Under the pieces are notes generated by a model. That model saw only the letters and a list, made by a program, of their open reading frames with translations. It had not been told where the DNA came from and made no database searches. Position numbers and translations under genes: made by a program. Of a DNA stretch of 34,641 nt, positions 2,342 to 32,134 are shown piece after piece. The first letter of the stretch is position 1. The number at the start of each line of letters is the position of its first letter. This DNA is from Pseudomonadota bacterium. GTDB taxonomy: Bacteria; Pseudomonadota; Alphaproteobacteria; Rickettsiales; UBA3002. The stretch is taken from NCBI GenBank assembly GCA_963205305.1, contig CAUJIC010000012.1:1-34641 (forward strand). The letters run 5' to 3'.

Positions 2342-4090
2342 TTACGGGTTCAATGTTGGGGCCTGCGCGTCGTGCTGCTGCACATCTTCCAGGCGCTTGG
2401 TCCATGTAGGGGCATGGCGATTTTTTTGTTTTTCAGCGGCGCGTTCCATGGCTTTTTCATCGACACCAAAAACTTTACCAATGGTTTTGCTAGCGGGAAG
2501 AAACACTTTCTCGCTCGTCACTGCATCCCATTTCTGAGCAGCGGCAGGTGCAACCATCCGCCCACCGATCAGGATACCGTTGCTTACGATTGCACCCACC
2601 AGTTTGCTTTTAAATATCTCGGGGTAGCTGCGGCCATGTCCGCCCATTTTCTGCGCGACTGCCCCAAGCGGATAAGCAAACATGTTCCACACTACTGCCT
2701 GCGGCAAGTGCGAGACTTCGTGCTGGTAAATTTCCTCGGCATGCGCTTTTACCTCGGGTGCATCGGCTGTTAACCCTTGCTGCTGACCCCAGTGACGGGC
2801 AGTGCGATTCGCGCCACTGCGAAACGCCCAACCAAACAGTGGATCGGTGATTTTACGAATACCATTCATAAAATCAGGGAAAAGGCGCTGCACAGCAATC
2901 GTGAGTGGCACCGCCGCAAAATCACCAACGATTTCGCCTTTCAAATAATGCCCTGCCTCGTGCGCAAAAGTGCTGAGGGTGAGTTTAGGCTTTGGGTGGT
3001 GATGCGGCTCAGCGATTGCTCTGCACGTATAACGTTTATATCCGCATATCTCATGTTCGTGATGCTCGTGGCTGTGGTCATGTTTATGGTCGTGGCTAGA
3101 ATCACCGCAGCCTACATTCACCCCAAACGCCGCCGCTATCAGCGGCTGCAACACCACATCCGTGGTGCCACAGGAAAGCGCATGGTTGATGGTGTAGGCC
3201 ACATCCTCGGCGCGCTGATTCGCATTCTTCTCTTTTTCATGGGCACGCGCTGATAGTTCTTTTTCAAGTCGCGCGGCGTGAACGGTCGTGGCGGGCGTTA
3301 CCGTCGCAAGGGGTGCATCATGCGGTTGCCGATGCCACTCGGTCGATTGGCGCACCGCCTCACGGTAGGCCGCGCCATCATTCGCCGAAAGCTCGGAAGT
3401 CAGCTTCGCTGCCGCTTCACGCGTGCCTAGCCACTGTTTAGCAATGCTATCAATCTGTTGCTTATCCATCGCAGGAAGTGCGGCAGCCAATCCCTTCGTT
3501 AGCGCATCACGAAGCGCTCCATCGGGCGCAAATACCGCTGCTAGTGCATCATGGCCCAGCATGGCGCCTTTCGCCGTTGCATCAATATGCGCGATGACTT
3601 GTGGTTTCCCATTCTCCAAATGCAGCAAATCGTCCAACACTTCGCTCATTTTCACATCACGCAAAGGCGGCACCGCTGCATCTGCCTCGGCGGGCGTTAG
3701 CGCTGCAAGGCTGGCCACATAATTAGGCTGCGAAAGTAAATCTGCAAAGTGGTTCGCCTCCGCCGCGCGCCGATGCATAATCTGATGCATTGCTTCGCGC
3801 GCCTGTTCGGGCGTGCTGTGGTAGCGCGCATTGCTAGTGATGGTTGTTTGCGCTTTCAGCAGCGCATCACCTGCAACATCGATCAACGCGGGATCCGTGA
3901 TGGTGCTAGCAAGGGCGCGTTGTTCGGCAGCAATGCTGGCCGCTACCTGCTCTGGTCGTTGGCCACGTGATTTTTCACTATCCATACGGCGCACCACCAT
4001 CGCACGGAAAGCAGCATCGCGGTAGGATTCCATCGTCAATGGCGTGGGTGCTTGGGTAAGGTTCTGGGGCGATGCGTGTAGTATGTTCAT
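2342..4090 (-). CDS. unknown protein with His-rich loop and two HEXXH motifs
   Basis: I do not recognise the family. The 582-residue protein has a long, mostly helical, Ala/Gln/Glu-rich N-terminal part (1-320) and a C-terminal metal-site-rich part. The latter holds a His/Asp/Glu/Lys stretch (about 333-346), cysteines near 328, 349 and 356, HHH near 363-365, a zincin-like FAHEAGHYLKGE (HEAGH at about 377-381) and a second HEXXH (HEVSH, about 457-461). A hydrophobic, glycine-rich segment follows (about 497-520). No signal peptide is evident. HEXXH binds catalytic zinc in many metallopeptidases, so a zinc-dependent protease is possible but not shown. I took the ATG at 4090, preceded by AGGA, over upstream non-ATG starts that would add 18 residues. 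It lies downstream of recJ and tRNA-Glu, with its own 200-base leader. Confidence 0.6.
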   Translation of the reverse strand: MNILHASPQNLTQAPTPLTMESYRDAAFRAMVVRRMDSEKSRGQRPEQVAASIAAEQRALASTITDPALIDVAGDALLKAQTTITSNARYHSTPEQAREAMHQIMHRRAAEANHFADLLSQPNYVASLAALTPAEADAAVPPLRDVKMSEVLDDLLHLENGKPQVIAHIDATAKGAMLGHDALAAVFAPDGALRDALTKGLAAALPAMDKQQIDSIAKQWLGTREAAAKLTSELSANDGAAYREAVRQSTEWHRQPHDAPLATVTPATTVHAARLEKELSARAHEKEKNANQRAEDVAYTINHALSCGTTDVVLQPLIAAAFGVNVGCGDSSHDHKHDHSHEHHEHEICGYKRYTCRAIAEPHHHPKPKLTLSTFAHEAGHYLKGEIVGDFAAVPLTIAVQRLFPDFMNGIRKITDPLFGWAFRSGANRTARHWGQQQGLTADAPEVKAHAEEIYQHEVSHLPQAVVWNMFAYPLGAVAQKMGGHGRSYPEIFKSKLVGAIVSNGILIGGRMVAPAAAQKWDAVTSEKVFLPASKTIGKVFGVDEKAMERAAEKQKNRHAPTWTKRLEDVQQHDAQAPTLNP

Positions 4091-4294
4091 GGATCCTAAT
4101 TTGTAGTGAACCATTACCCTATTGCGAACCACTCTTAACAACAAGTGACAGTTTTATGACAATTGCTACCCTGAGCACCTGATTTTCTACCTTTTTAGCG
4201 ATAATGCCCGCCCTGACCATTCGCCGTGGTCATCATTCATCGACATTTTTGGGGCGAACCGGCTTTTTGTGGAAACCTAACCTATTGTAATTTA
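4091..4294. other. intergenic region between tRNA-Glu and the HEXXH gene
   Basis: These 204 bases are more AT-rich than the flanking genes. They hold the leader of the minus-strand HEXXH gene. I see no convincing -35/-10 pair, no stable terminator after the tRNA and no small gene with a ribosome binding site. Confidence 0.4.
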
Positions 4295-14096: not shown

Positions 14097-14780
14097 TCAT
14101 TCTCCGAACTTCACTTTTACATGAACAATGTTACCATTAGAACCATATGTTGTTTTTGTGTAGGAAACTGTATTACCTGCCTTATCAACAATTTTTTCAT
14201 AGCGCGCATAGGAGCCAGGTATATTTTTGGCGGGAACGTCTGAGCGAAATATACGCTGCCCATTTGAGCCTTCAGTTATTGTTATCTCGCCCGCATCTTT
14301 CGGCAATTTTTTATCAAAGCGATTTAAGTTTCTTGCCTGTGCAGGAGTCAGTGTATCTGTACTGAAGGCTCGAATTCCTCTAACGACCGCAGATAATATT
14401 CTTCCCAATCGGAAAAGTGGAAAAAACAATAATTCGGGATAGACTGGGTCGAGTCCAGGCTCGGCGGGTATAGGCTCAGGCTTTGGTTTAGGCGCAATGC
14501 CGTGATACGGCTCCGCCCAGCACCTGCACCCAAAATCCTCGCCAGGGTTGCCTGTCGCAGGCGGCTTATCCCACGCAAAAATCCTGCCTTCATTCGCTGC
14601 ATGGCTGGGGCGTACTTTGCCATCGCCTTGGGTGTGCCAAATATAGAACGCTGTAGTGTGACTGGCCGCAGTCTCGGCTTTTTGCAGTAGCGTTTTGATG
14701 GAAACATCCATCAGCGTGCCCTTACGCAGATACTGCTCGAATGCTTTTTGGTAGAGTGGAGAATCAGGGGTAATGGTCAT
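14097..14780 (-). CDS. MuF-type phage head fragment fused to a probable toxin C-terminus
   Basis: The 227-residue protein reads as a modular polymorphic toxin. Residues about 45-93 match the C-terminal signature of Mu F/SPP1 gp7-type minor head proteins ([20 protein letters not shown], then [14 protein letters not shown], with C85 and C87). A Pro-rich linker (94-112) and a short hydrophobic stretch (116-134) follow. The C-terminal domain (about 165-227) contains [19 protein letters not shown] and [17 protein letters not shown], a compact basic, Tyr/Thr-rich module resembling small toxin tips. The N-terminal bulk of a real head protein is missing. ATG 14780 has GAGG just upstream. Toxin modules fused to MuF proteins are known from temperate phages; the activity of this tip is unknown, with a nuclease the likeliest guess. 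Confidence 0.65.
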
Positions 14781-16005: not shown

Positions 16006-16078
16006 ATAGCGTTTTTCCTTTACACCCAGGGCGATGCATGATGGATGCGGGTCAATTCTCTATCGTCCACTCACAAGC

Positions 16079-16091
16079 ATTCCGAAGGAAT
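16079..16091 (+). promoter_or_regulatory. small hairpin overlapping the ribosome binding site
   Basis: ATTCC-GAA-GGAAT (16079-16091) is a perfect 5-bp inverted repeat whose right half and loop include the GAAGGA ribosome binding site, ending four bases before the ATG at 16096. It could modulate translation, but the stem is short and may be chance. Confidence 0.3.
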
Positions 16092-16095
16092 ATCT

Positions 16096-16851
16096 ATGCG
16101 TAAACTTTTCACTGCCGTCACTGTTGCTCTGCTTGCCACCAGCGCCCACGCGCAAAGCGTTCCCACCTGCGCCGATCTGCCCGATCAGGCAGCACTTAAA
16201 GCTGCCCTCAAGGCCGCAACCTCTGCTCAAAATGGTGGCTTTGCATTGCCAATGTGGGGCACCATTGTGGATCGTAGCGGCACCGTGTGCGCCGTTGCCT
16301 ATAGCGGGGACACGGTCGATGCCCAATGGCCAGGCAGCCGCGTGATTTCGGCACAAAAAGCTAACACTGCAAACGCGTTCAGCCTCGTTGGCCTCGCGCT
16401 TTCAACTGCCAACCTCTACTCCGCTGTTCAACCTGGCGGCAGCCTGTTCGGCCTGCAAGAGAGCAACCCTGTGAACACCGCCGTTGCCTATGCAGGCAAC
16501 ATGAAAGATTTCGGCACCGCCGCTGACCCCATGGCGGGCAAGCGCATTGGTGGCGTGAACGTGTTCGGCGGCGGCTTGGCACTTTACAATGCAAAAGGCG
16601 CCATCATCGGTGGCCTCGGCGTCAGCGGCGATAGCTCGTGCGCCGACCACAACATTGCATGGCGTACCCGCAACAGCCTGAAGCTAGATTTTGTTCCAGC
16701 AGGCGTTGCGAAGGATAAAACCGACCAAATCATCTACGATATTGCTGCGGGCAAAAGCGCAGGCGGCTTTGGCCATCCTGTTTGCGCCGGCACCGAGAAC
16801 ACATTGGTGAAAGACCTGCCCGCAGTCACAAAAGTCGCTGCTGCGAAATAA
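16096..16851 (+). CDS. secreted GlcG/HbpS-family (DUF336) protein
   Basis: The 251-residue protein has a clear Sec signal peptide (MRKLF, hydrophobic core, cleavage after AHA at residue 19), so it acts in the periplasm or outside. The mature part matches the GlcG/HbpS fold: a helical start (AALKAALKAATSAQ), FALPMWGTIVDRSGTVCAV, an ISAQKANTANAFS helix, NPVNTAVAYAGN and a glycine-rich core VNVFGGGLALYNAKGAIIGGLGVSGDSSCADH. Some members of this family bind haem and act as sensors or stores; others have unknown ligands. Two cysteines in the core could form a disulphide. ATG 16096 is chosen over an upstream ATG at 16045 because of GAAGGA and the signal peptide. A terminator follows. Confidence 0.85.
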   Translation: MRKLFTAVTVALLATSAHAQSVPTCADLPDQAALKAALKAATSAQNGGFALPMWGTIVDRSGTVCAVAYSGDTVDAQWPGSRVISAQKANTANAFSLVGLALSTANLYSAVQPGGSLFGLQESNPVNTAVAYAGNMKDFGTAADPMAGKRIGGVNVFGGGLALYNAKGAIIGGLGVSGDSSCADHNIAWRTRNSLKLDFVPAGVAKDKTDQIIYDIAAGKSAGGFGHPVCAGTENTLVKDLPAVTKVAAAK

Positions 16852-27797: not shown

Positions 27798-27874
<77 letters not shown>

Positions 27875-28043: not shown

Positions 28044-29696
28044 TTAGTCGCTGAAGCCGAGCGCGCGGCGTTGTGCTTGCCAGTCGAGCGGGATGTCAAT
28101 CTGGCGAATCAGCATCTGGGTCGTAAGATGAGCGGGCTGCTTACCTGCCATAATGGCCTCTAAAATATCCGGCGCCAAGAATGCCAAGGGCATGATTTTC
28201 TTCACATAGCTGTCGCTCACATTATGCTGAGATGCGATCTCCGCCATTGTAGCGACGCTCCCGGATAGCAGCGCTTCGCTCCATGCATGGGCACGGGCGA
28301 TGGCGTTGACGAGAGTAGAATCGATGGTAGCAGTAGCTGCCATTCCGCCTTCGATGATTAACCGCATCTCATGGCCGCGCCGCCTAATTTGCATCGGCGT
28401 ATCACGCGTCATGGAGATGGCATCGTCATCAGCTTGTAAAGATACGAGCGATGCCAACGACAGTTGGATCTGCACCCTATCCTGCTGCAGCTCTACCCGC
28501 CTCACAAATGTCCCAAAAACATAACCTTGATACTGAGCTACCTCATGAGCTTTGGCTAACAAGGCTGGAATATGATGCGATGGTACATTTGCTGCCTGCA
28601 AGGCATCTACGATAGCATCGCGGTCAATTAGCATGGCTTGGGTAATGCCGAAGATGGTGGTTTCGATGGCTTTACCAGGCAGACGCCAGCCATTCGGGGC
28701 ATCCTCTTTCATGCCCGTCTTTAAAGATTGGGAGATGTAATAGCGATACCGTCGTCCCTTTTTGTTCGCATGCACGACAACCAACGCTTCACCGGTTGCA
28801 GCATCGAACAACTTACCATTGAGGCATACGTCTTCAGTTTTTCGCGATTGTTCAACGATGCCAGACCGATTACTGGCTAACTTTTGCTGCACTCGATCCC
28901 ATAGCTGCGGGTCAATAATACCCTCATGCTGCCCTACATGGCAGGTGCCTTTAAAGCGTATCTTCCCCGCATAGAGTGGGTTGGATAACAGATGGTACAG
29001 AGACCCACGCGAGAATACCATCCCGCCAGGACGCGTATCGCTATCACGTGCTTTGGAGTAGATGCCATTCGCACGTAGATCATCGCATAGCTGGCGGACG
29101 CCGCCCAACTCCAAATACCGTGCAAAGATATAACGGATAGTTAACGCCTCGGCCTGATTGATGACCAGCTTCTTCTCCACAATGTCATACCCCAACGGTG
29201 CATAGCCGCCCATCCACATGCCTTTCTTTTTAGAGGCAGCGATCTTATCGCGGATACGCTCGCCCGTGACCTCGCGCTCGAACTGGGCGAAAGAGAGCAA
29301 AACGTTAAGTGTTAGGCGCCCCATGGAGCTGGTAGTATTAAACTGCTGTGTCACCGATACAAATGACACGCCGCGCTTATCGAACACCTCCACCATCTTC
29401 GCGAAATCATGCAGCGAGCGTGAGAGTCGATCCACCTTATAGACGACGATCACATCTATCTTACCTGCCTCGATATCCTGCATTAGCAGCTGCAACGCTG
29501 GGCGATTCATGGTCCCGCCACTATACCCCCCATCGTCGTAGGCCGTTTTTACCAACTGCCATCCCTCGTGTTTCTGACTTTTGATGTATGCTTCACTGGC
29601 TTCACGCTGCGCATGCAGAGAGTTAAAATCTTGCTCCAATCCATCTTCTGAGGATTTGCGGGTATAGATAGCACAGCGGATGATCTTGCTGGTCAT
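28044..29696 (-). CDS. large serine recombinase
   Basis: The 550-residue protein is a site-specific serine recombinase. The resolvase domain (1-150) has YTRKSSEDG (catalytic Ser15), SLHAQREA, YDDGGYSGGTMNRP and VVYKVDRLSRS; a recombinase domain (about 165-260) and a C-terminal DNA-binding part follow. The region normally forming a Cys4 zinc ribbon reads NGKLFDAATGEALVVVHANKKGRRYRYYIS, without cysteine pairs, as in many alphaproteobacterial relatives. ATG 29696 overlaps the DUF2924 stop (ATGA) and follows AAGGTG; a start at 29738 would add 14 residues. It probably integrates or excises the element, perhaps with DUF2924 and DUF3489 as partners. Confidence 0.9.
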   Translation of the reverse strand: MTSKIIRCAIYTRKSSEDGLEQDFNSLHAQREASEAYIKSQKHEGWQLVKTAYDDGGYSGGTMNRPALQLLMQDIEAGKIDVIVVYKVDRLSRSLHDFAKMVEVFDKRGVSFVSVTQQFNTTSSMGRLTLNVLLSFAQFEREVTGERIRDKIAASKKKGMWMGGYAPLGYDIVEKKLVINQAEALTIRYIFARYLELGGVRQLCDDLRANGIYSKARDSDTRPGGMVFSRGSLYHLLSNPLYAGKIRFKGTCHVGQHEGIIDPQLWDRVQQKLASNRSGIVEQSRKTEDVCLNGKLFDAATGEALVVVHANKKGRRYRYYISQSLKTGMKEDAPNGWRLPGKAIETTIFGITQAMLIDRDAIVDALQAANVPSHHIPALLAKAHEVAQYQGYVFGTFVRRVELQQDRVQIQLSLASLVSLQADDDAISMTRDTPMQIRRRGHEMRLIIEGGMAATATIDSTLVNAIARAHAWSEALLSGSVATMAEIASQHNVSDSYVKKIMPLAFLAPDILEAIMAGKQPAHLTTQMLIRQIDIPLDWQAQRRALGFSD

Positions 29697-30136
29697 GCGG
29701 CACCTTTCTTCAAGCCGAAGAACAGGGGGCCGGACCATTTAGCACCAGTGATTTGCTGCGCGACTTGCGACAGTGAACGATAGCGCTGACCTTTATAGTG
29801 CACCCCATCGTCGAGTACCGTCACCTCATGGCTTACCCCGTGCCATTCACGCAGCAGCCGCGTGCCTGACTTAACTTGTGTAACCGGAATTGCCGCACGA
29901 GATGCATGACCATCTTCAGCAATTTTCATGAGATAGCGTTGCATGGATGATTTCAATCCGCCCAGTGCTTGTGCTTGCATGCGATAGGCTAGCGCACGCA
30001 GCATTAGCGGTTGGCTGATATTGCGTGGCAGCTCAGCACCATAGGCCGTTTTCCACGCGGCAATCAGCGCAGACCGGTCCAAGCTTGGCAGCCTCGCCAA
30101 CTCATCGGCGAGGCTGCTGTTGGTGCGACGTTTCAT
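29693..30136 (-). CDS. DUF2924 domain protein
   Basis: The 147-residue protein matches the DUF2924 pattern: LADELARLPSLDRSALIAAWK near the N-terminus, ISQPLMLRALAYRMQ (about 40-54), GTRLLREWHG and VTVLDDGVHYKGQRYRSLSQVAQQITGAKWSGPLFFGL at the C-terminus. The C-terminal part resembles a small DNA-associated module often found beside serine recombinases. It is coupled at both ends: TAATG with DUF3489 upstream and ATGA with the recombinase downstream. The function is unknown; its constant pairing with recombinases suggests an accessory role. Confidence 0.85.
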   Translation of the reverse strand: MKRRTNSSLADELARLPSLDRSALIAAWKTAYGAELPRNISQPLMLRALAYRMQAQALGGLKSSMQRYLMKIAEDGHASRAAIPVTQVKSGTRLLREWHGVSHEVTVLDDGVHYKGQRYRSLSQVAQQITGAKWSGPLFFGLKKGAA

Positions 30137-30477
30137 TACCGCGCATCCGCGATGCGATAGGTGCGCCCGTGCTCACCGTACTCAGTGATGAGCGGCAAGC
30201 CGAGGCGCTTTTTCAGCACACCTGACATGGTGCCGTGCACGCTGTGGCGCTGCCAGCCCGTCGCTTCCATCAACTCTTCAATAGCTGCACCCTTGGGGCG
30301 TTTTAGCAGGCTGATCAGGATTTGCTGTTTGGATGCCGCAGGTGCTGGGGGCTGTGGCAACTTCGGTTTTGATTTGCCGATGATGATTTCGACCGGCGCA
30401 GCGGCGGGTTTCGCAGCGCGCTGTTTCGGTGTTTCCGATTCAGCGGTTTCGATGCGTTTAGATTTTGCTTTCGACAT
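30136..30477 (-). CDS. DUF3489 domain protein
   Basis: The 113-residue protein has a disordered Lys/Ala/Pro-rich N-terminal half and a C-terminal winged-helix-like domain (about 49-110: KQQILISLLKRPKGAAIEEL, then ATGWQRHSVHGTMSGVLKK) typical of DUF3489. This suggests DNA binding. AGGAGA lies six bases before ATG 30477. The gene leads into DUF2924 and the recombinase through overlapping stops and starts. Confidence 0.85.
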   Translation of the reverse strand: MSKAKSKRIETAESETPKQRAAKPAAAPVEIIIGKSKPKLPQPPAPAASKQQILISLLKRPKGAAIEELMEATGWQRHSVHGTMSGVLKKRLGLPLITEYGEHGRTYRIADAR

Positions 30478-32018: not shown

Positions 32019-32134
32019 TAAGGTTACTGAAGCTAGCTTGGGTAACAAGCATCGAATTCAATGAAGGCAATTCTCTGCTATAAATGAATGCCGGCGATAA
32101 CAGAGCCGTTTGTATTCATTTTGGGAGACAAGAG

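Follow-up and report, generated by a model that had tools for sequence, protein, structure and literature searches.

Within the window, that is, the whole 34,641-nucleotide stretch of DNA that was analysed, the gene at positions 2342–4090 was found to lie on the minus strand; the plus-strand frame over the same interval was interrupted by stops. A first-pass annotation had given these coordinates with no strand, and they were borne out. The open frame extends upstream of the ATG at 4090, as far as 4144. The encoded protein consists of two modules, referred to as A and B:

3287..4051, minus strand: module A, residues about 14–268, modelled as all-helical; in other loci encoded next to B as its own gene, or fused behind it
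2345..3268, minus strand: module B, residues 275–582, modelled as all-helical, an order-wide family
2342..4090, minus strand: whole gene for modules A and B (582 aa; interval includes the stop; ATG at 4090)
3041..3109, minus strand: His-rich loop linking helix 1 and helix 2, residues 328–350 (low model confidence; length and His count variable)
2996..3004, minus strand: HHH (residues 363–365), within the same variable loop region
2948..2962, minus strand: HEAGH (residues 377–381), 3/35 homologues, unconserved
2708..2722, minus strand: HEVSH (residues 457–461), ExxH in 30/35 and HExxH in 22/35 homologues

Both HEXXH motifs, the His-rich stretch at 333–346 and the HHH were present where the first-pass annotation had placed them, and the several cysteines it mentioned were four, at residues 307, 328, 349 and 356. 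In 20,000 composition shuffles of the window protein, a 15-residue stretch with eight His arose in 0.01% and at least two HExxH motifs in 0.5%, so that the His cluster greatly exceeds chance expectation and the HExxH pair does so modestly. No relative of the window protein was obtained in Pfam, NCBIfam or PDB sequence searches, in agreement with the earlier remark that no named family could be recognised. A G6PD_N match (E 0.07) was below the cut-off and was taken as chance.

Several other genes of the window were observed. The ORF at 14097–14780 (minus strand), between the genes of PHA synthase and alanine racemase, combines a Phage Mu F-like domain (Pfam, 3.6e-11) with a match to SPP1 gp7 below threshold, and is a phage-derived gene in a housekeeping stretch. 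At 16045–16851 (plus strand), upstream of a MlaE-type lipid transport permease, there is an HbpS-like domain of the haem-degrading family (Pfam, 9e-13). Just downstream of tRNA-Ile (27798–27874), genes for a serine recombinase (Resolvase + Recombinase), DUF2924 and DUF3489 lie at 28044–30477 (minus strand); together with a ParB-N/N6_N4 methylase gene at 32084, they look like an integrated mobile element.

The two-module make-up came to light when 90 related genomes, among them that of the window, were searched; 22 gave matches. With a module B profile of 25 rows (A1), 343 genomes of the order, probably uncultured Rickettsiales, were searched and 34 had B; in a class-wide sample of 385 it was present in two, namely the window's own and another of the same order. 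The B loci with named records (n = 20) were from MAGs of uncultured Rickettsiales, of Alphaproteobacteria and, once, of Pseudomonadota. Module A (profile A4, 9 rows) was found in 9 of the 343 genomes, always fused to or beside B and in either order: the fusion is A-B in the window and L075 and B-A in L089, L090 and L100, and the two are neighbours in one direction in L081 and L083 and divergent neighbours in L071 and L073. Because the order is exchanged yet the company is constant, A and B point to a physical or functional pair. They are unrelated to each other by profile (hhalign probability 0.1). The module B family is unnamed in Pfam and NCBIfam and undescribed; no literature on it or on zinc regulons of Rickettsiales was found in a scope that included passages of PMC9817125, PMC4176598, PMC4771312, PMC9352585 and PMC6103462. 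A possible link to the family Athabascaceae could not be confirmed, a single passage on UBA6187 being all that bore on it.

Further arrangements of B were noted. A third small family lies directly upstream of B at L083:7470-7928, L084:6729-7766 and L093:6604-7545; its members have two short hydrophobic stretches, the ends are His-rich in two of the three, and the L084 member has no Pfam match. This family is possibly another partner of B. At L061:1060-2706, module A is replaced by a different N-terminal part, in which there are two additional clusters rich in His/Cys and a hydrophobic stretch rich in Gly/Ala, and at L074:7839-9983 B is followed by a C-terminal part of ~430 residues with no Pfam match.

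Residue conservation in B was counted over an alignment of 35 homologues. The conserved elements outside the two HEXXH motifs, and that of module A, are:

3158..3187, minus strand: helix 1 motif N302-H303-xxx-C307-xxx-D311 (H 32/34, C 34/34, D 34/34)
2921..2935, minus strand: helix 2 motif E386-xxx-D390 (both 35/35)
2546..2560, minus strand: invariant R511 ... P515, helix 5 (35/35)
3551..3589, minus strand: module A invariant helix H168 ... G175 ... H180 (9/9 members)

In the A alignment, whose numbering starts 13 codons upstream of the ATG, the last three residues are H181, G188 and H193. It was found that the most conserved residues of B (H303, C307, D311, E386, D390, R511 and P515) all fall outside both HEXXH motifs; D296 was also kept in 32 of 33 letters. 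The HEAGH site reads HExxH in the window protein and its two nearest relatives, L061 and L062. At the HEVSH site, the first His is replaced (by Y, F, R, K or Q) in 13 of the 35 homologues. Four members with the Fur-type promoters described below (L088, L089, L090 and L100) have no ExxH and L086 has lost its His, which shows that the site is not essential to the family. Thus, of the two motifs singled out by the first-pass annotation, HEVSH is conserved as ExxH whereas HEAGH is not conserved; the refuting outcome that this annotation had named, a motif without conservation, applies to HEAGH but not to HEVSH. The His-rich loop holds from 0 to 26 His across the B rows. None of the ten core residues tabulated for B, and none of the residues invariant in A, is missing from the window protein.

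The AlphaFold model of B (35 rows; mean pLDDT 82.8, pTM 0.76) showed helices only, with no strands. The His-rich loop (model residues 48–97) was of low confidence and lay between helix 1 and helix 2, and HEVSH was on a helix. Within helices 1, 2 and 4 the conserved residues were spaced 3–4 apart, as a metal site in the predicted bundle would need. Foldseek searches of PDB and of viral models with B yielded no match at E ≤ 0.001, and the VIA-align rows peaked at Z 3.7; no known fold was recognised, and there was no zincin among the structure rows, which excludes nothing. The model of module A (9 rows; pLDDT 86.3, pTM 0.80) was nearly all helical, and again nothing was obtained from Foldseek against PDB at E ≤ 0.001. 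Its VIA-align structure rows were mostly globins, the best being 4zvb_A (rmsd 4.8, 144 aligned of a 150-residue chain), with a Z of 6.7 that is within the range the tool calls common for helical models and is taken as a lead only. No globin profile was among the matches of the nine A members, nor was a globin found by sequence in PDB.

An inverted-repeat scan upstream of B revealed two kinds of palindrome. One, called Fur-type here, follows the 7-1-7 Fur consensus as TGATAATnATTATCA, with close variants (TGAG and TGCG arms). The other, Zur-type, is TGTTATAnTATAACA, with the same core as the Zur site of Vibrio zrgABCDE, which is printed as TGAGTGTTATATTATAACACCCG in a passage of PMC9817125. Allowing up to two mismatches, a Zur-type box was found in 8 of 36 A/B upstream regions and in 6 of 440 other genes from those loci (p 1e-6; shuffles 0/492), and a Fur-type box, with variants picked after the promoters were seen, in 16 of 36 and 5 of 440 (p 5e-16; shuffles 5/492), the p-values being indicative only, since the B rows are related and independence is overstated. 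The classical Fur box alone was present in 7/32 regions and 4/460 other genes. Taken together, 24 of the 36 A/B upstream regions had a Zur- or Fur-type box at this threshold, and never both in one region. In the scan that used the classical Fur box, eleven other genes had Zur-type boxes (≤2 mismatches), all of them in loci holding a Zur-like gene. The promoter of the window gene itself had no clear box (best Fur 3 mismatches, best Zur 6); a Zur box was sought and was absent, and one feature remained:

4123..4137, minus strand: sole Fur-like palindrome near the start of the window gene (3 mismatches of 14; background level, as 37/440 other genes are within 3)

The neighbouring genes pointed in the same direction. 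A Zur-like gene was present in 8 of the 35 B loci, including 7 of the 8 Zur-box loci and 0 of the 16 Fur-type loci (p 2e-5, rows related). Four Zur-like genes were run against NCBIfam, and Zur was the best match of all four, below its cut-off. In L063, the layout is zur-aztA-aztB-B-aztC: zur is followed by an ABC ATPase, an AztB permease (3.4e-74), B and an AztC binding protein (2.5e-93; Pfam ZnuA 1.7e-86), and the stop of B overlaps the start of aztC. L065, L067 and L070 hold genes for an ABC ATPase, an FtsX/MacB permease and DUF3299. In L065, B is accompanied by an SbmA/BacA-like ABC gene, the DUF3299-FtsX/MacB-ATPase set and a zur-ATPase-permease-AztC set, with Zur-type boxes preceding B, the SbmA-like gene, the ATPase of the DUF3299 set and zur; in L067 and L070, B is divergent from zur and the ATPase-permease-DUF3299 set is present. 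The Fur-type loci scanned adjoin housekeeping rather than uptake genes (e.g. penicillin-binding protein, ammonium transporter, alanyl-tRNA synthetase, secA), so these B genes look like single regulon genes. On the evidence of the operator sequences and neighbours, B is very probably part of how these bacteria respond to zinc and iron starvation, which is the firmest result of this analysis.

SbmA/BacA-like ABC genes divergent from B and with Zur-type boxes were observed at L065:6168-7850 and L068:4624-6342; a zinc-starvation importer of peptides or metallophores is a possible role for them. In the window, L082 and L098, B lies beside recJ-glpX-homoserine dehydrogenase-aminotransferase. A functional tie between B and recJ was rejected, and the arrangement was taken as a shared site.

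L063, with B inside the aztA-aztB-[B]-aztC operon behind zur, resembles the AztABCD zinc importer of Paracoccus. The window protein matches no NCBIfam model, however; the extra component of that system, AztD, is a secreted periplasmic chaperone, whereas B, from a reading of its sequence, has no obvious signal peptide. The second likeness is to the zrg zinc uptake system of Vibrio, in which, according to a passage of PMC9817125, ZrgC, ZrgB and ZrgE are the ATPase, the permease and the DUF3299 protein: the same three kinds of gene neighbour B in L065, L067 and L070, and the Zur-type boxes share their core with the zrg site. However, no ZrgA was among the neighbours scanned, except for a sub-threshold ZrgA match inside the L067 permease, and B has no Pfam match.

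The Zur-type and Fur-type members were found to differ in the protein as well. The median His count of the loop was 13.5 in Zur-type rows (n = 8) vs 2.5 in Fur-type rows (n = 16; p 0.007, rows related), with the Fur-type L082 (23 His) and L098 (26 His) as very His-rich exceptions. The full HExxH, with its first His, was present in 8/8 Zur-type vs 6/16 Fur-type members (p 0.006, rows related). Module A occurred in 7/16 Fur-type vs 0/8 Zur-type loci (p 0.054), and 7 of the 9 A loci were Fur-type. On the B tree, the labels require 7 changes for Fur and 5 for Zur, at least 4 and 3 by well-supported branches; the backbone is poorly supported and rows with no recognised box also count as changes. 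By this count, the regulator seems to have been swapped on several occasions. The window's B falls in a clade (100/100) with L062 and L061; in the latter (MAG UBA6189), a Zur-type box is present and zur is divergent. Because this B clade is Zur-linked and A occurs mostly with Fur-type promoters, the window protein appears to unite a zinc-branch B with such an A.

From the computed family, modularity, promoter boxes, operon context and residue conservation, we infer metal binding, a relay role, a location and, for this member, zinc as the metal. The reading that we favour, by a modest lean, is that B is a metal-starvation protein that binds scarce metal and passes it on, the metal being zinc in this clade. 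When zinc (sensed by Zur) or iron (by Fur) drops, the repressor would leave the promoter and B would be made together with, or parallel to, metal uptake systems. H303/C307/D311, E386/D390 and E458/H461, on helices 1, 2 and 4, may together make up one metal site, or a series of sites, in the helical bundle, and the His-rich loop between helices 1 and 2 may, chiefly in the zinc branch, capture metal as it comes in and buffer it. B would receive the scarce metal at or near the inner membrane and hand it on, with module A as a helical partner domain, only found with B and mostly with Fur-type B genes. It is the conserved H/C/D/E sets and the His loop that suggest binding and relay; the starvation control argues against a store for excess metal. 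Counting against this reading are the lack of a clear box at the window gene and of a Zur found in its genome, the very His-rich loops of two Fur-type members, the members without ExxH and the housekeeping neighbours of the Fur-type loci scanned. The earlier suggestion of a metal-binding protein with a His-rich loop and one meaningful motif is probably right; its catalytic part is not supported.

Alternatively, B could be an integral inner-membrane metal permease, with helices 1, 2, 4 and 5 crossing the membrane, conserved polar residues lining the path and a cytoplasmic His-rich loop such as ZIP and CDF transporters have; we regard this as possible, though rather doubtful. Four family-averaged hydrophobicity peaks coincide with the four helices, the conserved polar residues are one-faced over up to 15 residues, and the metal-uptake operon context would suit a permease. 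But the peaks are low (0.82–1.30), and the member maxima of KD19 (0.97–2.02, mostly 1.2–1.7) overlap those of soluble proteins of the window (1.31–2.06) and stay below a permease (2.16), so that the hydrophobicity of the sequences seems insufficient for calling membrane helices, yet its pattern speaks against dismissing them. ZIP transporters (PF02535) have a His-rich loop between helices and an HE-type motif within a helix, as B does, and 3 of 35 B members touch the PF02535 model (best E 0.038); nevertheless, the motif order of B differs, and hhalign of profile A3 against seven alphaproteobacterial ZIP proteins showed no similarity (probability 0.1).

Less probable is a metal-dependent helical-bundle enzyme, diiron or ferritin-like, i.e. 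a starvation paralogue using whichever metal is available. Proteins of that sort have two carboxylate-ExxH half-sites in a four-helix bundle; the B alignment shows one ExxH, one ExxxD and one HxxxCxxxD, of which ExxH and ExxxD sit on different helices, and the exchange between Fur and Zur fits a metal-sparing enzyme. The weak structure rows include a desaturase and R2-like oxidases; however, these lack significance (E 3.5 at best, TM at most 0.13), one Ferritin_2 match was obtained in 35 members (E 0.07), and four members have no ExxH.

It is slightly less probable again that the window gene is a decaying or constitutive relic, an iron-branch A and zinc-branch B chimera in a genome that lost Zur. 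No box was found upstream of the gene, and no Zur was found in the window genome (95% complete, 80 contigs), which has one ZnuA-family gene and one Fur-family gene, Fur-like by E-value strength; the B clade is Zur-linked while A elsewhere is in Fur-type loci (7/9). The open frame is nevertheless intact over 582 codons, and the complete set of B core and invariant A residues argues against decay. Finally, a zincin metallopeptidase in which HEAGH or HEVSH would be catalytic, as the first-pass annotation had proposed, is very improbable: the window protein has the HExxH letters twice, which is unusual for its composition, and two Reprolysin models each gave matches in 2/35 members (best E 0.017, for Reprolysin_5, and 0.086), but the idea fails with the conservation of HExxH, since B conserves ExxH, ExxxD and HxxxCxxxD sets instead, no peptidase family was over the cut-off for the window protein in Pfam or NCBIfam, and the starvation-operon context speaks against it.

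If B is indeed a starvation protein that binds and relays metal, a wider proposal can be made tentatively, and we hold it with less confidence than the relay role itself: B would be a new class of metal-acquisition protein, whose metal has switched repeatedly between iron and zinc via the exchange of Fur and Zur operators and the tuning of the protein, zinc members gaining the His-rich loop and the first His of HExxH, and iron members losing them and partnering with module A. The window protein would then be a chimera that arose in nature, joining an A of the iron branch to a B of the zinc branch. Environmental Rickettsiales would thus own a metal-starvation family, unnamed in the profile libraries searched, that lies within operons for zinc import and is also controlled by iron. 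Its members would form a compact natural series, with regulator choice, His-loop length and one core-site histidine co-varying, making metal specificity testable by single-residue swaps, and would give a functional handle on proteins that annotation would leave hypothetical or mislabel as proteases.
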